Assembly: GCA_024279115.1 (NCBI GenBank)
Contig: JAJRRW010000011.1
Location: 1-41,743 of the forward strand
Direction: 5' to 3'
From: Alphaproteobacteria bacterium
Lineage (GTDB): Bacteria; Pseudomonadota; Alphaproteobacteria; Rhizobiales; JAKIUO01
DNA: 41,743 nucleotides
The notes under the pieces are model-generated. The model did no database searches, had not been told where the DNA came from, and saw only the letters and a list, made by a program, of their open reading frames with translations. The translations under genes and the position numbers were made by a program. Positions 30,023 through 41,743 of the stretch are shown in pieces; position 1 is the stretch's first letter; each line of letters begins with the position of its first letter.

Positions 30023-30736
30023 TTAAATCGCCAGATATTGATGGCGCAATTCGGTATTGTCGAGCACCTCTTGAGCCGTGCCGTCAAAGACGATTTTACC
30101 CGTATCAAGGATCATCGCACGATCGGCCAGCTTCAACGCAGCAACGGCGTTCTGCTCGACCAGAATAGTCGTGATGCCAAGCGCCTTGATGCCTTGCAAT
30201 ATCCGCTCGATCTCTTGCACGATCACCGGTGCCAATCCTTCAAAGGGCTCGTCCAGCAACAAGAATTTAATATCCCGCGCCAGCGCTCTGGCAACGGCCA
30301 GCATTTGCTGTTCACCGCCCGACAAGGTGGTGCCATCTTGCTTGCGGCGCTCGGCAAGGCGGGGAAAATGCTCATATATTTTATCGAGCGACCAGCCAAT
30401 AGGTTCGGCGATCTGCGCCAGTTTGAGATTTTCCTCAACCGTCAGCCCCGCAATGATGCAGCGATCCTCTTGCACCAAAGAAACCCCCAGCCGCGCGGCC
30501 TCATAGGCTTTCATCTCATGCAAAGGATGGCCATCCATCCAGATTTCACCTTGCTGGAGCTGTGGATCATTGGTGCGGGCAATGGTGCGCAGCGTCGAAG
30601 TTTTGCCCGCCCCGTTGCGCCCCAAAAGAGCGAGGATTTCGCCCTCGTTAATGTCAAAACTCACCCCTTGCACAATATAGCTTTCGCCATAATAAGCGTG
30701 CAGATCGCGGGCCGAAAAAAATACTTTATCGGTCAT
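30023..30736 (-). CDS. livF: Branched-chain amino acid-type ABC transporter, ATPase LivF
   Basis: A 237-residue ABC ATPase. Walker A is GRNGAGKT, the signature is LSGGEQQ, Walker B is FLLLDEPFEGL, and an H-loop-position residue follows in ILVEQN (Gln replaces His, as usual in LivF). With LivG it energises the import channel LivHM. Its start overlaps the livG stop by four bases, so the two are translationally coupled. Confidence 0.95.
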   Translation of the reverse strand: MTDKVFFSARDLHAYYGESYIVQGVSFDINEGEILALLGRNGAGKTSTLRTIARTNDPQLQQGEIWMDGHPLHEMKAYEAARLGVSLVQEDRCIIAGLTVEENLKLAQIAEPIGWSLDKIYEHFPRLAERRKQDGTTLSGGEQQMLAVARALARDIKFLLLDEPFEGLAPVIVQEIERILQGIKALGITTILVEQNAVAALKLADRAMILDTGKIVFDGTAQEVLDNTELRHQYLAI

Positions 30737-31488
30737 TCCTGCTCACCTCCAAGATAGGCTTCTTGAACAACCCGGCTGCCCTTGATTTCCTCGGGTGTCC
30801 CCTCGGCAATGAAGGTCCCTTGCGCCAGAACGGAAATGGTACTGGCCAGTGAAAACACCACATGCATGTCATGTTCGATAATGACTTTGGTGATGCCGCG
30901 CTCGCCGATTTTCTTCAGCAGGTCGATTGTTGCATTGGTATCTGCCCTCGACATGCCAGCGGTCGGCTCATCAAGCAAAAGCAGTTTTGGATCCTGAATA
31001 AGACACATGGCCAGCTCCAGCCGCCGCTTGTCGCCGCGCGACAGACTTGAACAAACAAGATTTCTCTGATCAGCCAGCCCCACATCTTCCAGTGCATGCT
31101 CGGCTTTGGCACGGATCTTGGTGCGCGAGCCGACATGGCGCCAGGCATTGAGGCGAAAAGCACCGTCCGCCTTGGCAAAGGCCGGGATCATCACATTGTC
31201 GATGAGGCTGAGATCCTCGAATATTTCCGGGGTCTGGAACACCCGCGCCACCCCGGTTTGATTGATTTCGTACGGGTTCATGCCAATCAGCGAGGTGCCG
31301 TTGAACATCACGGTACCGCTGTCTGGCACAAGGCGCCCTACAAAGCAGTTGAGCAGCGTAGATTTACCCGCCCCGTTGGGGCCGATAATCGCGTGAACCG
31401 CGCCTTCTTTGACGGTCAGATTGACAGCCGACAAGGCGTGCAACCCACCAAAACTCTTATTGACATCCGCAACTTCAAGCATCGCCAT
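30733..31488 (-). CDS. livG: Branched-chain amino acid-type ABC transporter, ATPase LivG
   Basis: A 251-residue ABC ATPase with Walker A GPNGAGKS, Walker B LLLLDEPTAGM and H-loop IIEHDMHVV. The signature is LSRGDKRRLELA rather than LSGGQ, a variant common in the LivG/UrtD side of the family. It ends with TPEEIKGSRVVQEAYLGG, the usual LivG tail. Three bases separate it from livM. Confidence 0.95.
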   Translation of the reverse strand: MAMLEVADVNKSFGGLHALSAVNLTVKEGAVHAIIGPNGAGKSTLLNCFVGRLVPDSGTVMFNGTSLIGMNPYEINQTGVARVFQTPEIFEDLSLIDNVMIPAFAKADGAFRLNAWRHVGSRTKIRAKAEHALEDVGLADQRNLVCSSLSRGDKRRLELAMCLIQDPKLLLLDEPTAGMSRADTNATIDLLKKIGERGITKVIIEHDMHVVFSLASTISVLAQGTFIAEGTPEEIKGSRVVQEAYLGGEQE

Positions 31489-31491
31489 GAT

Positions 31492-32721
31492 CTAGCCCTC
31501 CCCACTGGTTTTTTGTTCCCGGGAAGTCTCAGTAGCAGCCTCACCCGAAGCAGCAGCCGGGGCCGCGGGGTCATTCTTGTTGCGGCGGAACAGTCCAAAA
31601 AGCCGGGCAAATCCCTCCATCATGCCACCGGGCAGGAAAATCACGATGATCATGAACAACAGGCCAAGCGTCAGATGCCAGCCGGAGCCAACAAACATGC
31701 CAACCACAACCACAAACACCTCTTGCAGTCCAGACGGCAGGAACGAAAACAGATTTTCCAATATGCCGGTATTGATGGACGAGAAAATATTTTCGAAATA
31801 TTTGATAATTGCCGCCCCGAGCACCGGACCAAGCAGCGTACCAACGCCACCCAAAATGGTCATCAGCACGACTTCACCAGATGCCGTCCATTGCATGCGC
31901 TCGGCTCCCGCCAGAGGATCTGTCACGGCCATCGACGCCCCGGCCAGCCCGGCATACATGCCCGAAATAACGAACGCCGCCAGCAGATAAGGTCTTGTAT
32001 TGATGCCGGTATAATTGAGACGGGTCTGGTTGGACTTGATGGCGCGCAGCATCATGCCAAAATTAGAGCGCGAAATCCGCATGGCAATGAAAAAGCCGAT
32101 GATCAGCAAAACGGCGCAAAAATAAAAGCCGGGATAGCCGCTCATCTTTAGGCTAAACAGATTGGTAATGGGAATGCCATGCTCGACAACCCCAAACATC
32201 TGGTCAACCAGCCGCAAATCCTCGTCCAGCAAATTCAATACATAGTCCGGCCCCCGATCAGCGGGTGCCAGCTGCCTGATCTGCAGGGCGGTTTCGCCAT
32301 TGGTCAGCGGGGTCAAAACGGAATAGGCCAGATTATAGGACATCTGGGCAAAAGCCAGCGTCAGAATGGAGAAATAAATCCCCGAGCGGCGCAGGCTGAC
32401 ATAGCCGATAACCAGCGCAAATATTCCCGCGATCAAAATAGAAAACATCACAGCTGGCAGGACATCCATGGTGAACAGCTTGAACACCCACACGGAGGCA
32501 TAAGACCCCACCCCAAGAAAGGCGGCATGGCCAAAGGACAAATAGCCGGTCAGCCCAAACAAGATGTTGAAGCCGATGGCGAACAGCCCGAAAATCGCAA
32601 ATTTTTGCAGCAGATCAGGATAAGCCGCGCCAATCGGGGCCAGGGTAATGGGCAAGGTCAGCACCACCACCGAGAACACCAACAGCAAGATCCAGTCGCC
32701 TCGTACAGAATTCCCAAACAT
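31492..32721 (-). CDS. livM: Branched-chain amino acid-type ABC transporter, permease LivM
   Basis: A 409-residue permease of the LivM type with about ten membrane helices; [21 protein letters not shown] and [19 protein letters not shown] are family motifs. The last 40 residues form an Ala/Glu-rich cytoplasmic tail ([17 protein letters not shown]). A non-conserved segment of about 50 residues (about 140-190, [19 protein letters not shown]) probably lies outside the membrane. It is sandwiched between livH and livG with gaps of five and three bases. Confidence 0.93.
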
Positions 32722-32726
32722 TGCCG

Positions 32727-33752
32727 TTAATCCTCCATCACGCCCTTGCGGCCCAGCAGACCGCGCGGTCTGACCAGCAGGATCACAACCGCAACCAGAT
32801 AGATAATGATCTGGTCAATTCCGGGAAATAAGCTTTTGACTTCATTCATCGAGGCAAAGGATTGCAAGATGCCCAGCAAAAAACCGGCAGCAACCGCGCC
32901 GCCAAGCGATCCCATGCCCCCCACCACGACAACAACAAAGGACAAGACCAAAAAGTCCATGCCAATATGATAGTCTGGAGGCAGGATGGGGGTGTACATG
33001 GCACCAGCCAGTCCGGCAACCACGGCCGCCAATCCAAAAACAATGGTAAAGCGGCGCTCGATATTAATGCCCATAAGCGCCACTGTTTCGCGGTCGCGCA
33101 TCCCAGCGCGCACTACCATGCCAAAAGTCGTGAACTGCAAAAAGGCGAACACCGAGAAAATCACAAAGGCCGAAAAACCAAAATAGACAAGCCGCCACCA
33201 AGGATAGACCACATTCTCGCCAAGGCCCAGCCACAGCCCGATATTGGCGCTGCCCGATACGATATCAGGAGCCGGCTGGGGAATCGGATTGGCTCCGAAA
33301 TAATGTTTGACGATTTCCTGCAGCACAATGGCCAGGCCAAAGGTCACAAGTATCTGGTCCGCATGAGGGCGGTTATAAAAATGCTTGATGAGCCCGCGCT
33401 CCATCACCACACCCACCAGCAGCATGAAGGGAATGACCAGTAAAATGGACATGGGGACGGAATAATTAATCAAGAAAGCGCCGAAATCGCCGAACCATGT
33501 TTCCACATAGGGCGTCCGGATTTCTATGGGTGTCCCCCAGGCGGTTTTCAAAACCGGATCGAGAACAACCTGGTCCAGATTGATCAGCTTGTTAAAGGCG
33601 ACAGCACAAAAGGCACCGAGCATAAACAAAGCCCCGTGCGCAAAGTTGACAATACCCAATGTTCCAAAAGCCAATGTCAGCCCAAGAGCAATCAGCGCAT
33701 AGGCACCGCCCTTGTCCAAGCCGTTTAGAAATTGCAAAAAAATGGCGTCCAT
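32727..33752 (-). CDS. livH: Branched-chain amino acid-type ABC transporter, permease LivH
   Basis: A 341-residue permease with about eight membrane helices. [19 protein letters not shown] opens it; [19 protein letters not shown] and the cytoplasmic coupling motif around [16 protein letters not shown] follow, and [13 protein letters not shown] is near the end. A loop of about 45 residues after the third helix ([20 protein letters not shown]) is longer than in E. coli LivH and probably faces the periplasm. The gap of 168 bases to the upstream livK-type gene contains a GC hairpin. Confidence 0.93.
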
Positions 33753-33868
33753 CAGTTCCCTATTCCCCGAGCCCCACGCTCACAATTCGCTAAAGTGTCG
33801 ATTTTCGATCTGGCCGGGCATGTTATTATTATTGTTATAACCCGGTTCAGGATCAAAGAGGGAGTTCG

Positions 33869-33896
33869 CCCCCCCGGAAAGCTAAAATCCGGGGGG
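33869..33896 (-). promoter_or_regulatory. GC-rich hairpin between livK-like gene and livH
   Basis: CCCCCCGGA and TCCGGGGGG pair perfectly around a 9-base AT-rich loop, 25 bases after the livK stop. No U-run follows. Such hairpins commonly stabilise the binding-protein message and lower read-through into the permease genes. Confidence 0.7.
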
Positions 33897-33920
33897 AGCG
33901 ATGTCAATCAGATCCTTGAA

Positions 33921-35285
33921 CTAGCAAGGCTTGGAGTTAACAGGACCAAGACTACCACCAAGCATTTTGTCATCATATTCAACCTGAGAGCGCGGTGTGA
34001 CTTCCACAACCTCGAGCAGATCGAATTTTGTTGTCGGCTTCTCATTGCCGCGCACCACCAGCACATCTTTAAAGCACTGATGATCAGCCGCACGATATTC
34101 CGTTGGACCATTGCCAAGACCATCAAACTTGAAGCCTTCAAGCGATTTGACAATACCGACAGGCGAGAAGGTTCCTGCCATTTCGGCAGCATTTGCATAG
34201 AGCAAGGTCTGCACATAGCAGGTATGAGCGGCCATGGAAGGAGGAGCACCATATTCGGCACCAAAGCTTTTGACGAAGGCTTTTGATCCTTCATCCTTCA
34301 GCGACCAGTTCCAGTTTGTCGATCCAAAGATACCCTTGATGGCATCGCCCGCACCCTGCGCCATCAAGCGAGAGAACAAAGGCACAATAATCTCGAAATT
34401 CTTGCCATTGACCTGCTTGTCACGCAGACCAAACTGCACCGCCTGGGTCAGTGAGTTGACCATATCCTTGCCGTAATGGTTGAGGATCAGAACATCTGCA
34501 CCAGAATTCAGAACCGGAGTGATATATTGCGAGAAATCACCCGCGCCCACAGGGGTTTTAACTGTTTTGGTGGTCTTCCAGCCGATGGCCTCGGTGGATT
34601 CCTTCATGGATTTTTGTTGTGACCAGCCCCAGGTATAGTCAGCGGTCAAATGATAGGCATTGCGTACCTTGCCATAGGCTTTTTCAAGCACGGGACCAAG
34701 CGCTGCGCCCGACATGTGCGTATTGAAGAAATGGCGGAAACCATTGGCACGTCTGTCCTTGCCGGTGGTGTCATTGGAATGGGTCAGACCGGCCATAAAA
34801 ATAACGCCGGCTTCTTGACAAAGACCCTGCACAGCAATGGCCACACCAGAGGAGGAACCACCGGTGATCATCACGGCATTGTCTTTTTCGATCATGCGCT
34901 TGGCAGAGGCACGTGCCGCTGGTGACTTGGTTTGTGTATCACCGGTCACGAAGGCCACTTTTTTACCCAGCACGCCGTTGCCCTTGAGGACAGACGGCTT
35001 GAAGGTAGACAGCATGCCGCCATCGCCTTCGCCGTTCAAATGCTTGACAGCCAGCTTGTAAGCGCGCAATTCATCGGCGCCTTCATCAGCATAAGCGCCG
35101 GTCTGCGGGACGTTGAAACCGAGCGTCACGGTCTTGCCGGTTGGCTTGTTGCAATAATCAGCGGCATGAGCTTCGCGAATAAAATGAAGAGGGGCGACGC
35201 CACTCGTCAGTGCAAAGGCACCAAGGCCAGCACCAGCCTTCAAGATGGTCCGCCTCGTGGCAATGTTACTTGTTTTCTTAGTCAT
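33921..35285 (-). CDS. Periplasmic substrate-binding protein, LivK type, Tat-exported
   Basis: A 454-residue type I periplasmic binding protein. The signal is twin-arginine (NIATRRTILKAGAGLG, cleaved near AHA/ADY), unlike the Sec signal of E. coli LivK. The binding fold has VTLGFNVPQTGAYADEG, ITGGSSSGVAIAVQGLCQEAG and DVLILNHYGKDM. It is longer than LivK (about 370) and has Cys near both ends (DYC and SKPC), which may form a disulfide. The ligand may be an amino acid, amide or small acid; the sequence does not tell. AGAGGA lies six bases before the ATG at 35285. First gene of the importer operon, divergent from the XRE regulator. Confidence 0.9.
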   Translation of the reverse strand: MTKKTSNIATRRTILKAGAGLGAFALTSGVAPLHFIREAHAADYCNKPTGKTVTLGFNVPQTGAYADEGADELRAYKLAVKHLNGEGDGGMLSTFKPSVLKGNGVLGKKVAFVTGDTQTKSPAARASAKRMIEKDNAVMITGGSSSGVAIAVQGLCQEAGVIFMAGLTHSNDTTGKDRRANGFRHFFNTHMSGAALGPVLEKAYGKVRNAYHLTADYTWGWSQQKSMKESTEAIGWKTTKTVKTPVGAGDFSQYITPVLNSGADVLILNHYGKDMVNSLTQAVQFGLRDKQVNGKNFEIIVPLFSRLMAQGAGDAIKGIFGSTNWNWSLKDEGSKAFVKSFGAEYGAPPSMAAHTCYVQTLLYANAAEMAGTFSPVGIVKSLEGFKFDGLGNGPTEYRAADHQCFKDVLVVRGNEKPTTKFDLLEVVEVTPRSQVEYDDKMLGGSLGPVNSKPC

Positions 35286-35424
35286 AACTGTCCTCTCTGG
35301 TTTGTTAAACACTCTTTCTCGAACAACGCCCTGGCTTCTCGAAGGAAAGCCTGTAAGGCAGCACTTCATGCGTCGACAAGACGCAGTTTACTTTTTTGAG
35401 AAACGCTAACTGATATCCGGCCCG

Positions 35425-35514
35425 TTGTAAATTTATATTTAAACTATTGTTTATTATCGGTTTTTTTGTAAAATTTACACAAGTGAAATATGTGAATTTG
35501 TAAAACTGTAAAAC
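35425..35514. promoter_or_regulatory. TGTAAA-motif cluster, probable operator
   Basis: The divergent region livK/XRE (35286-35590) holds TTGTAAATTTA (35425-35435), a perfect palindrome TGTAAA-A-TTTACA (35467-35479) and a tandem pair TGTAAAAC TGTAAAAC (35499-35514). ScfR/RamB-type regulators bind TTTGCAAA-like sites, so these may be the operator of the adjacent XRE protein. The motifs are seen; the binding is inferred. Confidence 0.55.
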
Positions 35515-35590: not shown

Positions 35591-37153
35591 GTGACCCCAC
35601 TTGGCCCCAGGCTGCGCTCGGTGCGCAAAAAAAAGGGCATCACTCAATCAGATCTTGCCCGTTCAATCGGCATTTCGGTGAGCTATTTGAACCTGATTGA
35701 GCACAATAAGCGCAATATTGGCCCCGCACTGGTCGCCAAGCTGACGCGCGCCCTCGATATTGATCCGCAGCATTTGTCCACCCCGCAGGATGCACGCCTC
35801 ATTCACGACCTTGAAAATCTTGCCGCAGAACCATTGTTTCGCCTGTCGCGGCTGGAACCCAAAGCCCCCAAAGAAATTGTCGCCAATCATCCGCGATGGG
35901 CGCAAGGTATCCTCAAATTATACCGCTCCAACCAGGCCTGCAGTGAAGCGCTGGAGGCCATGTCGCAGCGCCTCAACAGCGACCCCTATATGGTGGAGAG
36001 CTCCCACCAGATCATGAATATCATCACCTCCATCCGCTCGTTTTCCGAAATCCTGGAAGAAGTCCCCGATCTGCCCGATGACGTGCGCAACAGCATGACT
36101 ACGGGTATTTCAGCGGAAAGCCGCAAGCTTGGCATTGCCGCCAAGTCGTTGTTTGAATTCATCAATGAACCCGGCAAGTCACCGCGCTCTTCCACTCCCG
36201 CCGATCAGGTCAATGATTTCTTGATTGACCGGCACAATTATTTCGAGGAACTCGAAGACGCAGCCACCAGCCTGCGCACCCGCATCGACAAGTCAGGCCA
36301 CCGCCTCAGCGATGCCCTGTTCGACTATTTGCAAGAAAAACACGGCACCAAGATTGAATTTCGGACGCCACAGGCACGCTCAACCCCCGGCACCGCCAGT
36401 CAGTATAAATATGACCCGAAAAGCCGCTCGCTTTATCTTGCCAATACGCTGCCAGAGGCCTCCGCACGCTTTCAACTGGCGCAACATCTGTTCGAGCTGG
36501 AATATGGCGATGCCCTGGCTGGCATCCTCAAAAGTGCCGATCTGACAGGCGAAGTGTATCAAGGGGCCCTGCGCGCCTTGTTAAACTATGCGGCCAGCGC
36601 TTTCTTGTTTCCCTATGAGCCTTTTCTGGAGGCCAGCGAAAAGACGCGCTATGATATTCAGTTGCTGCGCCGCGCCTTTGGCGGCAGTTTCGAGCAGATC
36701 TGCCATCGCTTCACCACCCTCAAACGCCCAACAGCTCCCGGCGTGCCTTTTGCTTTTTTGCGGGTCGATCCAGCGGGCAATATTTCCAAGCGCTACAGCC
36801 TGCCCAATCTGCCCCTGCCGCGCGGCGATGGGGCCTGCCCCTTGCTGCTTGCCTATCGCGCCTTTTTAACGCCGGGGCAAATCTGCACACAAATTGGCGC
36901 TCTGCCCGAGGGCGAGAAAAATCTGTATATCGCCCGGACCGTCTCTAAGCATGTGGGGGCCTATGGGGAGCCGGACCGCATGTATGCGATCATGATCGCC
37001 TGCGAGGGACACTATATTGACCAGGTTTTGTATGGCGACCATTTGTCGGGGCGCGGCGACCAGCACCTCACCCCCCTTGGCCTTCACTGCCGCACCTGCT
37101 CGCGGCGCTCCTGCCAGCACCGGGCGCACGGGTCCGTGTTAGGCACCTTGTAA
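35591..37153 (+). CDS. ScfR-like XRE transcription regulator with an embedded HisKA-like helix
   Basis: A 520-residue regulator. An N-terminal Cro/CI HTH (about 6-60, LGPRLRSVRKKKGITQSDLA) is followed by about 40 residues of linker. Then residues 138-190 resemble a histidine-kinase dimerisation helix pair (SHQIMNIITSIRSFSEIL, with His139). A middle region from about 210 (RHNYFEELEDAATSLRTRI) and an IrrE/DUF955-like part (ARFQLAQHLFELEYG) lack the HExxH zinc motif. The C-terminal DUF2083-like domain has the Cys-rich end HCRTCSRRSCQHR. ScfR relatives (RamB, PrpR/PccR) sense short-chain acyl-CoA and control acetate or propionate use. GTG start with AAGGA upstream. The receiver gene follows after 83 bases. 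Confidence 0.85.
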   Translation: MTPLGPRLRSVRKKKGITQSDLARSIGISVSYLNLIEHNKRNIGPALVAKLTRALDIDPQHLSTPQDARLIHDLENLAAEPLFRLSRLEPKAPKEIVANHPRWAQGILKLYRSNQACSEALEAMSQRLNSDPYMVESSHQIMNIITSIRSFSEILEEVPDLPDDVRNSMTTGISAESRKLGIAAKSLFEFINEPGKSPRSSTPADQVNDFLIDRHNYFEELEDAATSLRTRIDKSGHRLSDALFDYLQEKHGTKIEFRTPQARSTPGTASQYKYDPKSRSLYLANTLPEASARFQLAQHLFELEYGDALAGILKSADLTGEVYQGALRALLNYAASAFLFPYEPFLEASEKTRYDIQLLRRAFGGSFEQICHRFTTLKRPTAPGVPFAFLRVDPAGNISKRYSLPNLPLPRGDGACPLLLAYRAFLTPGQICTQIGALPEGEKNLYIARTVSKHVGAYGEPDRMYAIMIACEGHYIDQVLYGDHLSGRGDQHLTPLGLHCRTCSRRSCQHRAHGSVLGTL

Positions 37154-37236: not shown

Positions 37237-37614
37237 ATGCACCGAACCGTACTAATCGCTGAAGACGAGCCCTATATTGTGCAATCGCTCAGTTTTCTAC
37301 TGGAAAAAGAAGGTCTCGATGTGGAAGTCGCGGTGGATGGACGCCAAACCCTCGACATGCTCCGCAAAAACCCCCCGGATATTTTATTGCTGGATTTGAT
37401 GATGGAGCATCTGACCGGCTTTGAGGTCCTCAAGATCCTGCGCTCCGAGGGGGAGCTAAAAGACATCAAAGTGCTCGTGCTATCGGCCAAGGGGCAAGAA
37501 AATGATCGACGCCGGGTGATGGAGCTTGGCGCAGATAAATTCATCACCAAACCCTATGCCAACAATAATGTCGTCGAAAGCGTGTTAGAACTGCTGGAAA
37601 GCATACCACACTAA
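37237..37614 (+). CDS. Stand-alone response-regulator receiver
   Basis: A 125-residue CheY-like domain with no output domain. The acidic pair is in IAEDEPY, the phosphoacceptor is Asp53 in LLLDLMM, and Ser83 and Lys105 (ITKPY) complete the active site. It sits between the XRE regulator and the symporter-kinase gene, so the kinase is its probable phosphodonor; without an output domain it must act by binding another protein. Confidence 0.92.
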   Translation: MHRTVLIAEDEPYIVQSLSFLLEKEGLDVEVAVDGRQTLDMLRKNPPDILLLDLMMEHLTGFEVLKILRSEGELKDIKVLVLSAKGQENDRRRVMELGADKFITKPYANNNVVESVLELLESIPH

Positions 37615-37633: not shown

Positions 37634-37894
37634 ATGGATAAAGGTCGCCTCAAAGATCTTGCTACCTTGATGCCGTGGGTCGGACTGTTTTTGTTTACAC
37701 CGCCCGTGCTGTTTTTGTTTCATCCCGGCACCACGATATTTGGCGTTCCCCTGCTTCCTGTATATCTTTTTGCCATGTGGTTCGCGCTGATTTTGATCTC
37801 AAGAAAACTGACGCAGCACCTTGTTAACGACGCCACAGCTTTCAAGGCGCCCCCTGCCTCCCCCGTGCCGCCTAACCCGTCTCATAAGGGCTAG
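37634..37894 (+). CDS. Small two-helix membrane protein, symporter partner-like
   Basis: An 86-residue protein with two membrane helices (about 10-29 and 39-58; GLFLFTPPVLFLF and TIFGVPLLPVYLFAMWFALIL) and a Pro-rich C-terminal tail. Its size and the FG-x-P-L-x-x-x-Y-L-F-x-x-W motif are like the small proteins encoded next to sodium/solute symporters (DUF3311 or YjcH-like). It starts 19 bases after the receiver gene and ends ten bases before the symporter-kinase, consistent with a small subunit of that sensor. Confidence 0.75.
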   Translation: MDKGRLKDLATLMPWVGLFLFTPPVLFLFHPGTTIFGVPLLPVYLFAMWFALILISRKLTQHLVNDATAFKAPPASPVPPNPSHKG

Positions 37895-37904
37895 GCCAAC
37901 CACC

Positions 37905-40616
37905 ATGCTCAATTCAGGATTGGTGCTCATCACCTCGGCAAGCTATCTGGCGCTTTTATTTTTACTGGCCTTTTTCGTCAATCGACTGGCGGTCAATAAT
38001 AAATCGCGGATGATCAACTCGCCCTTGATCTACACCTTGTCGCTGACCGTCTATTGTACCTCCTGGACTTTTTATGGCGCTGTTGGTTCTGCGGCGCGCA
38101 ACGGGCTTGAATTCCTGACCATCTATATCGGGCCATCACTGGTGTTTTTTGGCTGGTGGTTTGTGTTGCGCAAGCTGGTGCGCATCAGCAAATCTCACCA
38201 TATCACCTCGATCGCCGACTTCATCTCGTCGCGCTATGGCAAAAGCGCCCGTCTCGCCGCCCTCGTGACCATCATGGCGGTGATCGGCACAACCCCCTAT
38301 ATTGCCTTGCAGCTCAAAGCCGTTGCCACCAGTTTCAATGTCATCACCCAAGTGCCGGGCCTGCCGATTGCCGCTTCCAGCATTGCCCACAGCTTTTATT
38401 CCGATACCGGCTTTTGGGTGGCCGCCTCAATGGGTATTTTCCTTGTGCTGTTTGGTGCCAGAACCGTTGGCGTGGAGGAACATCACCACGGGGTCGTCGC
38501 CGCCATCGCTATTGAATCGCTGGTCAAGCTGTTTGCCTTTTTGGCCGTTGGACTATTTGTGATGTTCAGCGTGCGGGCCCCTGGCGGGGGCAATATACTC
38601 TCGGCGATTGCGCTGGACCCCGCTTTGTCGCAGCGCTTTTCGTTTCCCGATCAATTTGGACCTCGCTGGCTGACCATGCTGATCCTGTCGGCCTCGGCGA
38701 TCATTTGCCTGCCGCGCCAGTTTCAAATCACCGTGGTAGAAATAGCCAATGAGCGTAATCTGCAAAAGGCCTCCTGGCTGTTCCCCTTATATCTTTTGCT
38801 GATCTCCTTGTTTGTCATCCCCCTTGCCGTTGCCGGCCTCACCATCTTGCCAGCTGGCTCCAACCCCGACCAGTTTTTGCTCACGGTTCCCATGGCGCTT
38901 GGCTATGAGGAACTATCGCTGCTGGCCTTTATTGGCGGCTTTTCGTCGGCAACATCCATGATGATGGTGGCCAGCATGGCCTTGTCTATCATGATCTCCA
39001 ATCATCTTGTCATGCCGTTACTGCTGCGGCTTCGTCACACGGAACTGGAACGAGGCGCCGATTTTACCGGTATTTTACTGACCATCCGGCGCATCAGCAT
39101 CGTCGCCATCCTTATATTGGGCTATGTCTATTATCGCTTCAGCACCGGATCTGACGCCCTGGCCTCCATTGGCCTCATCGCCTTTGCCGCCTCAGCACAA
39201 TTCCTGCCGGTGATCATTGGCGGCATCTTCTGGAAACACGGCACCGAGCTTGGTGCCTTTGCTGGTCTTTGCGCTGGTTTTATCGTCTGGGCCTTCACTC
39301 TGCTAGTACCGGTGTTCGAGCATGCTGGCCTGATCAGCGGCATACTTGAAAACGGCCTGGCCGGTATCGCCTTTTTACGCCCCGAGGCCCTGTTTGGAGC
39401 GACCGGCTGGGATCCCTTGGTACATTCCTTATTCTGGAGCTATTGCGCCAATATCGGCATTTACGTTTTCATCTCCTTGACCACCAAACCAGGGGCACTG
39501 GAGCGCTTGCAAGGCTCCTTGTTTGTCGATGCGTTCAAAACCCCGTTCAGTCCTGACGTGCCTCTTTCAGGGCGCTCGGTGCGCTCTGGCGAACTGGTCG
39601 CCCTGAGCCAGCGCATTCTTGGCACCGCTCCAACCCAAAAACTGTTCAAGGAATTTTCCACCAGGCAGGGCGTCAGTGGCTTGCCCGAACCAGATGCCTC
39701 CCTGGTCGCCGCCGTCGAGCGCCAAATGGCTGGCACCATTGGCGCCGCCTCGGCACGCATCATGGTATCACGGGTCATTGAGGGCGAAGAAATCGGCATT
39801 GATGAAATGATCGAAATTCTCGATGAGACCCAACAGGTCATTGCCTACTCGCACCAGCTCGAACAAAAATCGCAACAGCTGGAAGAAACCACGGCCCGCC
39901 TGCGCGCCGCCAATGATCAGCTCAAACGGATAGATCGACACAAGGATGATTTTTTGAGCCATGTCTCCCATGAGCTACGCACCCCCATGACATCGATCCG
40001 CTCTTTTTCGGAAATCCTGCTTGATACGGACGGTCTGGATGGAGAAAAACACGAGCAGTTTTTGAAAATCATTGTTTCTGAAAGCCAGCGCCTGACGCGA
40101 TTGCTCGACGAGATCCTTGATATTAATCTGCTGGAAAATGACTACGGCCCGTGGGAGGCCAAATCCATCAAGCCCTCCATCATCCTGCGAGAAGCGATTG
40201 CCTCTCTTGATGGCCTCGTGCAGCAAAAAAATGTCACACTGACCGATAGATCCACGGCCAGCGACTGGTCAACCCATGCCGACCCGGACCGGTTGAAACA
40301 GGTCTATATCAACATCTTGTCCAACGCCATCAAGTTCAGCGATCAAAAACAGCCGCGCGTCTCCATCGACATCAAAGTCGCCAAGGACAGCTTCAGCACC
40401 ATTATTTCTGATAATGGTCCAGGTATCGCCCCTGATGATCAAGCCGCTATCTTTGTCAAATATCAGCGCAAACAGCCAAGCGCCCAGGGCATCGGGCTTG
40501 GACTGGCGATCTCCAAACAGATTATCACCCGCATGAAAGGCTCGATTGATGTCCGCTCAAAACAGGGGCAAGGCGCCGTATTCACGGTGACCATTCCCAA
40601 TATTCAGGCAACCTAA
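37905..40616 (+). CDS. Sodium/solute-symporter-type sensor histidine kinase (CbrA/CrbS-like)
   Basis: A 903-residue hybrid of transporter and kinase. Residues 1 to about 540 form an SSS (SLC5-like) domain of about 13 helices (YCTSWTFYGAVGSAARNG, SYLALLFLLAFFV, GGFSSATSMMMVASMALS). A coiled coil (about 645-675, QLEQKSQQLEETTARLRAA) leads to HisKA (SHVSHELRTPMTSIRSFSEIL, His689) and HATPase_c (NAIKFS, DNGPGI, GIGLGLAIS). No PAS domain or receiver is visible. Similar kinases (CrbS, CbrA) control acetate or amino-acid use through a response regulator. The start at 37905 was chosen because the frame upstream overlaps the previous gene. Last gene of the four-gene cassette. Confidence 0.93.
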   Translation: MLNSGLVLITSASYLALLFLLAFFVNRLAVNNKSRMINSPLIYTLSLTVYCTSWTFYGAVGSAARNGLEFLTIYIGPSLVFFGWWFVLRKLVRISKSHHITSIADFISSRYGKSARLAALVTIMAVIGTTPYIALQLKAVATSFNVITQVPGLPIAASSIAHSFYSDTGFWVAASMGIFLVLFGARTVGVEEHHHGVVAAIAIESLVKLFAFLAVGLFVMFSVRAPGGGNILSAIALDPALSQRFSFPDQFGPRWLTMLILSASAIICLPRQFQITVVEIANERNLQKASWLFPLYLLLISLFVIPLAVAGLTILPAGSNPDQFLLTVPMALGYEELSLLAFIGGFSSATSMMMVASMALSIMISNHLVMPLLLRLRHTELERGADFTGILLTIRRISIVAILILGYVYYRFSTGSDALASIGLIAFAASAQFLPVIIGGIFWKHGTELGAFAGLCAGFIVWAFTLLVPVFEHAGLISGILENGLAGIAFLRPEALFGATGWDPLVHSLFWSYCANIGIYVFISLTTKPGALERLQGSLFVDAFKTPFSPDVPLSGRSVRSGELVALSQRILGTAPTQKLFKEFSTRQGVSGLPEPDASLVAAVERQMAGTIGAASARIMVSRVIEGEEIGIDEMIEILDETQQVIAYSHQLEQKSQQLEETTARLRAANDQLKRIDRHKDDFLSHVSHELRTPMTSIRSFSEILLDTDGLDGEKHEQFLKIIVSESQRLTRLLDEILDINLLENDYGPWEAKSIKPSIILREAIASLDGLVQQKNVTLTDRSTASDWSTHADPDRLKQVYINILSNAIKFSDQKQPRVSIDIKVAKDSFSTIISDNGPGIAPDDQAAIFVKYQRKQPSAQGIGLGLAISKQIITRMKGSIDVRSKQGQGAVFTVTIPNIQAT

Positions 40617-40831: not shown

Positions 40832-41743
40832 TTATCCTGAACGCTCATCCCGGCGCTTCGCCTCAAGGCGCATGGCGTGCAAGATCGGTTCGGTATAACC
40901 ACTGGGCTGGGCGCGCCCTTTGAAAACGAGATCGCATGCAGCTTTAAAAGCGAGACTACCCTCAAAATCATTGGCCCCATTCTTTTGATTTACAAGCGCT
41001 CGATAGGTGGGATCTCCCGCATTTTGCTCATCAACCACACTCGCCATCCGCGCCATGCTGTCCATGACCTGTTGCTCCGTGCAAATGCCATGATGCAGCC
41101 AGTTGGCTATGTGTTGCGAGGAAATCCGCAAGGTGGCCCGGTCTTCCATCAAACCGACATTATGAATATCGAGGACGCTCGAACAGCCGATGCCCGCATC
41201 AATCCAGCGCGACACATAGCCAAGAATACCTTGCGCATTATTGTCCAGCTCAAGACGAATATCTTGCGTGCTCCAATTGCGATCAGCAGCCACAGGAATA
41301 TCCAAAAGCTGCTCAAGCGCCGCGCGCCTTTGACCGGCAAGTGCCTCCTGGCGCTCACTCACCAGCACCTCGTGATAATGCAGGGCATGCAAAACGGCAG
41401 CGGTTGGCGAGGGTACCCAGGCGGTGTTGGCCCCGGCCTTTGGATGCTCGATCTTTTGCGCCAGCATATCAGACATCAAATCCGGCATGGCCCACATGCC
41501 CTTGCCGATCTGCGCATGACCGCGCAGGCCGCAAGCCAGCCCCACATCAACATTCCAGTCCTCATAGGCGGTCATCCAGCTAGCGCTTTTCATCTCGCCC
41601 TGGCGCACCATCGGCCCCGCCTCCATGCTGGTATGAATTTCATCTCCCGTGCGATCCAAAAAGCCGGTATTGATGAAAAAAACGCGCTCACGGGCCGCCC
41701 GAATACATTCCTTGAGGTTCAGCGTCGTGCGCCGTTCTTCATC
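40832..41743 (-). CDS. glcB: Malate synthase G, C-terminal part (cut by window edge)
   Basis: 303 codons open to the right edge encode the C-terminal part of malate synthase G, which joins acetyl-CoA and glyoxylate to malate in the glyoxylate shunt. The conserved stretches [51 protein letters not shown] and [20 protein letters not shown] are present, as is [30 protein letters not shown]. The catalytic Asp of the G isoform lies in the DRATLR stretch. The N-terminal 400-plus residues lie outside the window. It converges with the acetate-type sensor cassette, which suggests a shared physiological theme. Confidence 0.96.

Follow-up and report, generated by a model that had tools for sequence, protein, structure and literature searches.

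The window analysed here is a 41,743-nt stretch, taken whole, from a draft alphaproteobacterial genome (G000; 145 contigs) whose close relatives are MAGs. It carries the gene for an ScfR-type transcription regulator (P0001), followed on the same strand by genes for a stand-alone receiver (P0002), a small open reading frame (ORF) and a sensor histidine kinase (P0003), with a divergent set of ABC importer genes on the other side. The features are as follows.

30023-30736 and 30733-31488, minus strand: two ABC ATPases
31492-32721 and 32727-33752, minus strand: two ABC permeases
33921-35369, minus strand: ABC importer substrate-binding protein, divergent from the regulator, with its start as in the ORF list
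35465-35472 and 35497-35504, plus strand: two TTTGTAAA boxes, a candidate operator in the divergent promoter region, 32 bp apart
35591-37153, plus strand: ScfR-type (XRE) transcription regulator P0001, 520 aa, GTG start, assigned from its Pfam domains
35981-36166, plus strand: DHp-like hairpin, about residues 131-192 of P0001, between the HTH and the M78/ScfR domains
36005-36007, plus strand: codon of His139 in P0001, aligned with the kinase phosphoacceptor His689
36026-36055, plus strand: ten codons (TSIRSFSEIL) in P0001, protein-identical to kinase residues 696-705
37237-37614, plus strand: stand-alone receiver P0002, 125 aa, with Response_reg as its only match over cut-off
37634-37894, plus strand: small ORF, 86 aa, between receiver and kinase
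37905-40616, plus strand: SSS (transporter-like) sensor histidine kinase P0003, 903 aa, with HisKA at residues 680-744 and HATPase_c at 793-898
39969-39971, plus strand: codon of the kinase phosphoacceptor His689

P0001 has the domain set of an ScfR regulator, with each part over its Pfam cut-off: HTH_3 at residues 8-61 (50 bits against 23), a Peptidase_M78-like domain at 268-374 (47.6 against 22) and ScfRs (PF09856) at 376-515 (145.6 against 24). It falls outside the RamB equivalog NF038139 (332.5 bits against a cut-off of 700), and a Pfam search at E ≤ 1 gave no match to a HATPase_c (CA) domain in it. Its C-terminal cysteines 416, 500, 503 and 508 are each kept in 48 of 49 aligned proteins and would be expected to bind an Fe-S cluster. 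PrpR and RamB, according to excerpts of PMC10370305, bind CoA esters and carry a [4Fe-4S] cluster; by analogy, the ScfR part of P0001 points to a combined CoA-ester and redox input.

The preliminary description of this DNA had called the receiver one without an output domain, and Response_reg is indeed the only domain over cut-off in P0002. D53 and K105 are conserved in all 56 receivers of our set, so that these proteins can probably be phosphorylated. The 86-aa ORF has no match in Pfam or NCBIfam, and BLAST (E ≤ 1e-4) found relatives of it in 23 of 43 other regulator loci of the class. In P0003 no SSF domain was matched by Pfam at E ≤ 1; the SSS label comes from the preliminary description, and a gene with a matching H-box at the kinase's place in Paracoccus ferrooxidans is annotated as a sodium:solute symporter.

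The starting observation was that the regulator carries a near-copy of the phosphoacceptor helix of the kinase. Residues 138-155 of P0001 read SHQIMNIITSIRSFSEIL, and residues 688-705 of P0003 read SHELRTPMTSIRSFSEIL. Within them T146-L155 of P0001 is identical to T696-L705 of P0003, His139 aligns with His689, and further on a second-helix pattern lines up (I173/E176/S177/L180 with I723/E726/S727/L730), all as first described. The interval given at the time also holds, with 35999 opening codon 137 and 36170 lying in codon 194, except that the residue span put at 138-156 is really 138-155. The similarity reported for the DNA is confirmed at 26 of 30 bases over the ten identical residues and 38 of 54 over the 18 codons; six of the ten codons are identical, a likeness overlaid by synonymous drift. 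For the pair alone, BLASTP gives E 5e-5.

Homology to HisKA emerges at the level of the family. On P0001 itself the Pfam HisKA model aligns in register over residues 138-167 but stays below threshold (E 0.16; 12.5 bits against a cut-off of 26.9). The class survey of 385 genomes gave ScfR matches at E ≤ 1e-20 in 112, and in 30 of these the match extends over almost the full protein. A profile of 36 regulator segments compared with one of 26 kinase DHp domains gave an hhalign probability of 99.6 % and E 8.6e-24 over 61 columns, and Pfam HisKA (PF00512) matches 19 of the 36 single segments at E ≤ 0.01, P0001's own not among them. When the segment profile was searched against the PDB, HK853 was the first entry with a passing stretch (7.5e-6), and DivL followed at 5.3e-4; three protein A constructs placed above them were taken as an artefact because no stretch of theirs passes on its own.

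AlphaFold2, run on residues 98-200 with a five-sequence alignment, predicts a long helix and then a two-helix hairpin: helix 1 at 132-157, which includes His139, a loop at 158-162 and helix 2 at 163-192. Block pLDDT lies between 86 and 93 for residues 138-187 and falls to 79 and 71 in the flanking blocks; at full length the model is poor, with pLDDT averaging 54.4. Foldseek places HK853 (4jav) as the best match of the hairpin model at probability 1.00 and E 0.12, with no match at E ≤ 0.001, and the VIA Z of 9.7 lies in a range that unrelated helical proteins also reach (above 9), so that the fold search is only supportive. Homology and predicted fold together bear out the suggestion that a degenerate DHp hairpin lies between HTH and ligand domain, and on sequence grounds the hairpin is a HisKA homologue and a trait of a whole family of inserted regulators.

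Among kinases, the SSS type is the closest kin. A segment model built without P0001's own group scored the SSS kinase first of 25 HisKA places in the source genome (59.1 against 42.5 bits). In all 40 other genomes searched, the best non-self match of the segment model was likewise an SSS-type kinase DHp, at 53.9 to 76.3 bits, with every other place at 47.1 or below; that model contains the own segment of 34 of the 40 genomes and no kinase sequence, and the 40 were drawn from 43, leaving out three close relatives of included genomes. The kinship is nevertheless old. Over 45 pairs, a segment is 0.354 identical to its own kinase and 0.339 to other kinases, a small excess (permutation p 4e-4, uncorrected for kinship), and for P0001 the own kinase ranks about 20th of 45, with 19 scoring higher. 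The phrase 'near-copy of the neighbour' thus captured a real likeness but not its age: P0001 and P0003 resemble each other because both have stayed near an old consensus. Recent gene conversion or duplication from P0003 is ruled out by the 19 closer kinases and by the four codons of ten that differ within the identical stretch.

In a tree of ScfR proteins computed with the segment left out, one branch (support 0.959) divides 41 carriers from 27 segment-less proteins, P0001 lying on the carrier side, which fits a single gain of the hairpin; the tree includes no named RamB, PccR or PrpR sequence. The carriers form a single clade in this sample. The source genome also encodes an ScfR paralogue, on contig C92, which lacks the segment, as its alignment to P0001 covers only residues 4-117 and 203-513. 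Shorter regulators, with open frames of about 430-480 aa, occur in six loci (L039 and L197, from Litoreibacter and Paracoccus, and L151-L154); in these, part of the region that precedes the ScfRs domain is missing and the hairpin is retained.

We then compared 37 distinct regulator segments with 26 kinases column by column, numbering from the phosphoacceptor histidine (H). Residues specific to the kinase are largely gone. Glu at H+1, Arg at H+3 and Pro at H+5 are invariant in 26 of 26 kinases; in the segments they are found in 5, 7 and 0 of 37, respectively, proline at H+5 being absent from the seven commonest letters and from every aligned row. P0001, with Gln at H+1 and Ile at H+5, lacks the Glu and Pro of an active kinase H-box, and the end of helix 2 is mostly lost as well. 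Other positions persist: the histidine in 30 of 37 segments, Thr, Ser or Asn at H+4 in 35, the polar residues Arg +10 (31), Ser +11 (34), Glu +14 (34) and Asp +21 (33), Phe +30 (36) and, among the best kept, the hydrophobic core (Ile +15 and Leu +41, both 37). Of the positions conserved in kinases, the 16 in the receiver-facing half (H+7 to H+41) show a retention of 0.63 and the other 15, the histidine excluded, one of 0.28 (Mann-Whitney p 0.0011), with the halves having been drawn after the column counts were seen. The histidine itself occurs in 3 of the 10 genomes whose kinase gene is remote and in 34 of 34 others. In the 7 of 44 genomes that lack it, about three lineages by genus label, Gln, Phe or Tyr takes its place and the segment otherwise persists.

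At the HK853 specificity positions, those altered in the rewired structure 4jau, which we took as H+8, 11, 15, 34 and 37 from the titles of 4jau and 6rh7 by H260 numbering with no gap assumed, the P0001 segment and P0003 agree at five of five (SSIIE); the best of 12 other alignable HisKA domains of the same genome agrees at three, some of these domains being partly gapped there. Across 45 pairs, agreement is 57 % at these positions and 33 % elsewhere, a retention that is marginal against random positions (P 0.049) and indistinct from that of kinase-conserved positions (P 0.24). Of the four positions that DivL needs for DivK, two are poorly kept in the segment family (Arg H+3 in 7 of 37 and Phe H+12 in 13 of 37) and two better (Thr H+7 and Arg H+29, each in 26 of 37). 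We found no covariation of the segment with the receiver: the partial distance correlation is 0.12, against 0.21-0.25 for other parts of the regulator. Between segment and kinase DHp it is 0.26, the highest in the set.

In the genomes surveyed, the full inserted regulator always comes with the kinase. In 385 genomes of the class, an SSS-type kinase is present in 44 of 44 with an inserted regulator and in 9 of 341 others (Fisher p 2.6e-49, uncorrected for kinship). For these counts, the inserted regulator was called at a minimum of 220 of 233 model positions (44 genomes) and the kinase when its match began no later than residue 10 and reached at least residue 771 (53 genomes), a length cut of our own choosing; the candidates scored in each genome were capped at 7 for the regulator and 2 for the kinase. 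Another 32 genomes have only SSS kinases whose match is limited to the initial 620-750 residues; judged by the length of their frames, most of these are longer hybrids. Two H-box types, PMTS and PLTS, occur among the 53. In an additional genome (G064, 68 % complete) the inserted regulator is truncated where its contig ends, and no kinase was matched at E ≤ 1e-60. The survey of co-occurrence proposed earlier therefore turned up no full inserted regulator without a kinase. In a phylum-wide sample of 398 genomes, long matches to the regulator model (to position 209 or beyond) were confined to the same class, and in four genomes outside it ScfRs occur that match the model only up to a point before the hairpin.

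The order regulator, receiver, kinase is frequent. Receiver and regulator lie on the same strand no more than 1 kb apart in 31 of 44 genomes, as do kinase and regulator at up to 1.5 kb, also in 31; the kinase gene is remote in ten. In one genome (G080), no receiver scored over the 115-bit cut in the stretch around the regulator. In another (G001, locus L044) the receiver adjoins the regulator, with 16 bp between the open frames, and the kinase lies elsewhere with a receiver of its own. G335 (L047) has its receiver 2.9 kb from the regulator and again a kinase with its own receiver elsewhere, giving both genomes two receivers of the P0002 kind.

The nine genomes with the kinase and without the inserted regulator (G051, G056, G087, G131, G233, G292, G316, G348 and G370) have an arrangement of their own. 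In seven of them (L157 and L159-L164) a large protein is encoded between receiver and kinase, and a model seeded from those seven loci also finds it near the locus in L062, L064 and L065. Both of the copies scanned have an RNase_T exonuclease domain, and one has a PAS domain. The L159 protein gives a weak match to the regulator model over a pseudo-DHp stretch; in our reading of its sequence, it would have membrane helices and a pseudo-DHp that lacks the histidine. Possibly this protein serves the same receiver as another output built on a pseudo-DHp.

On the other side of the regulator, the five-gene ABC importer (30023-35369, minus strand) has an orthologue beside the regulator in 40 of 44 genomes of the class, P0001's included and also where the kinase is remote; it does not adjoin in G184, G007, G079 and G257. 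Among the other genomes the substrate-binding protein is 59-79 % identical, and NCBIfam gives only urea or branched-chain matches below cut-off for this protein and the permeases. For a lactate importer with PGA1_c126xx locus tags, considered as a counterpart, a search of open-licence PMC papers by tag returned no paper. The TTTGTAAA word occurs four times in the window, against 1.2 expected. Boxes of this type 5' of the regulator number 41 in 28 of 48 loci, against 2.5 expected, for a word chosen after inspection of the P0001 locus and with known ScfR boxes in view; an unguided count of 8-mers also puts it first (26 loci against 0.9 expected). Given these boxes and the conserved divergent importer, the regulator probably controls its own operon and the importer through the TTTGTAAA boxes. 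Convergent to the kinase lies a gene for malate synthase G (40832-41743, minus strand). In two other loci (L036, 5881-9538; L037, 5378-9022), a segment-less ScfR regulator adjoins malate synthase G, so that two ScfR systems stand together.

Taken together, homology, predicted fold, gene order and co-occurrence support the idea, put forward from this DNA alone, that a one-component metabolic regulator is tied to a two-component system. The preliminary description had offered four roles for the hairpin: to dimerise, to pair with the kinase, to dock the receiver or to be phosphorylated. Docking of the receiver appears to fit best, because the receiver-facing half is kept and the positions of kinase chemistry are lost. 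We therefore propose, at a probability of roughly 0.6, that the hairpin is a docking site, possibly also a phosphotransfer site, for the stand-alone receiver, and that the regulator is the output of the two-component system. In such a scheme an ScfR-family regulator in an alphaproteobacterial ancestor would have gained a hairpin related to the DHp of an SSS-type kinase; the hairpin would then have shed the features required of a kinase while retaining the surface by which receivers recognise it. The SSS kinase would phosphorylate the receiver, which would dock on the hairpin of the regulator (taken as a dimer) and alter its DNA binding. The output domain missing from the receiver would thus reside on a separate protein, the regulator, and because this keeps its ScfR ligand part, it would integrate a signal from the membrane with metabolic input.

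A stronger form of the docking proposal is a phosphorelay, in which the receiver (in the manner of ChpT or Spo0B, reversed towards the regulator) or the kinase would phosphorylate His139, and the phosphohistidine would control DNA binding. The retention of the histidine (30 of 37) and of Thr, Ser or Asn at H+4 (35 of 37) speaks for it, although Glu H+1 is mostly gone, as does the finding of the histidine in every linked locus (34 of 34) against 3 of 10 remote ones. Its replacement in 7 of 44 genomes, where the segment otherwise persists, implies that phosphotransfer is not essential everywhere, and we regard the phosphorelay as unlikely, at perhaps one chance in a handful. Slightly less probable still is that the hairpin has become a dimerisation or spacer helix pair and that its likeness to the kinase records ancestry without signalling function. 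A hydrophobic core kept in 37 of 37 segments at Ile +15 and Leu +41 would suit such a role, as would the missing covariation with the receiver; but polar positions are kept too (Arg +10, Ser +11, Glu +14 and Asp +21 in 31, 34, 34 and 33 of 37), all 44 genomes have the kinase, and segment-less ScfRs, some in the same genomes, indicate that an ScfR can do without the hairpin.

That the hairpin pairs with the kinase DHp, so that the regulator is tethered to the membrane or made inactive there, seems improbable to us. The segment and the kinase DHp do have the highest partial distance correlation in the set (0.26), and identity to the own kinase is slightly raised (0.354 against 0.339, p 4e-4), yet so small an excess can arise from kinship or from a composition in common, the helix halves that face away from the receiver are the diverged ones, and the kinase gene is remote in ten genomes. 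Chance resemblance of two amphipathic helices would be hard to dismiss on the BLASTP E of 5e-5 in a picked pair and a sub-threshold HisKA match, which would not suffice alone, or on a VIA Z of a size that unrelated helical proteins also reach (above 9). We regard it as refuted by the orthologue profiles (hhalign E 8.6e-24; HisKA in 19 of 36), and the SSS kinase coming first of 25 places at home and best in 40 of 40 other genomes, with the unequal retention of 0.63 in the receiver-facing half against 0.28, leaves it next to no probability. A fuller version of the receiver-docking proposal, which we put at somewhat under even odds, is a novel two-component layout with its usual parts exchanged: that this transcription factor carries a DHp, that the free receiver is a messenger between the kinase DHp and the regulator DHp, that a CoA-sensing regulator is thereby gated, perhaps by reversible histidine phosphorylation, by a transporter-like membrane kinase, and that the exonuclease-domain protein with its pseudo-DHp is another output.

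DivL is a membrane-bound protein. With DivK, it forms in Caulobacter a pair of degenerate DHp and single-domain receiver that resembles P0001 and P0002, its DHp binding DivK~P through the receiver docking interface (PMC4211667, in excerpt); for P0001, docking is proposed by likeness. The same excerpts describe DivL as a pseudokinase that has PAS and CA domains and whose action is on another kinase, whereas P0001 has its DHp without a CA domain and inside a DNA-binding protein. A DHp-like hairpin without kinase activity is also found in Spo0B, and neither of the phosphotransferases ChpT and Spo0B is known to have a DNA-binding domain. ChpT shares such an inactive hairpin with the P0001 segment (PMC12471899, in excerpt); P0001 differs from both proteins in its DNA-binding domain, and phosphotransfer by it is a proposal only. 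SSS-domain kinases are likewise part of CrbS/CrbR (MxtR/ErdR) and RpuS/RpuR, which excerpts of PMC9100948 and PMC7918813 link to carboxylate metabolism; there the kinases are hybrids and the regulators are LuxR-type with a DNA-binding domain of their own, in contrast to P0002, which has no output domain.

Within the ScfR family, P0001 shares with RamB, PccR and PrpR/MccR (PF09856) the HTH_3, M78-like and ScfRs domains, the four C-terminal cysteines and candidate paired operator boxes. Excerpts of PMC10370305 count Pden_1785 and Pden_2985 among the proteins of the ScfR network; the gene for the first clusters with two-component genes and that for the second with an isocitrate-lyase-like gene, and the excerpts make no mention of a DHp segment. 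We would guess that Pden_1785, from Paracoccus denitrificans, belongs to the same family as P0001. In Paracoccus ferrooxidans, WGR63093.1, annotated only as an XRE family transcriptional regulator, has the segment (71.3 bits), and its gene is followed by a receiver, a small ORF and an SSS gene. ScfR regulators, SSS kinases, single-domain receivers and DHp readers are each known singly. Their combination inside one regulator appears to be new: in the open-licence PMC literature, as far as its excerpts go, we found no DHp inside an ScfR regulator.

In many alphaproteobacteria, then, a worn-down DHp probably lets a membrane sensor control a metabolic regulator directly. Stand-alone receivers lack an output domain, and their targets are often unidentified. 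Here the target of a receiver can be read from the genome, in the form of a regulator with a segment akin to the partner on which that receiver docks. If the proposal is right, it would supply an alphaproteobacterial SSS-kinase system with its missing output, and the DHp would be reusable as a reading module within a transcription factor. It would also yield a rule for finding the partners of orphan receivers: to look for DHp-like hairpins in proteins that have no kinase domain.
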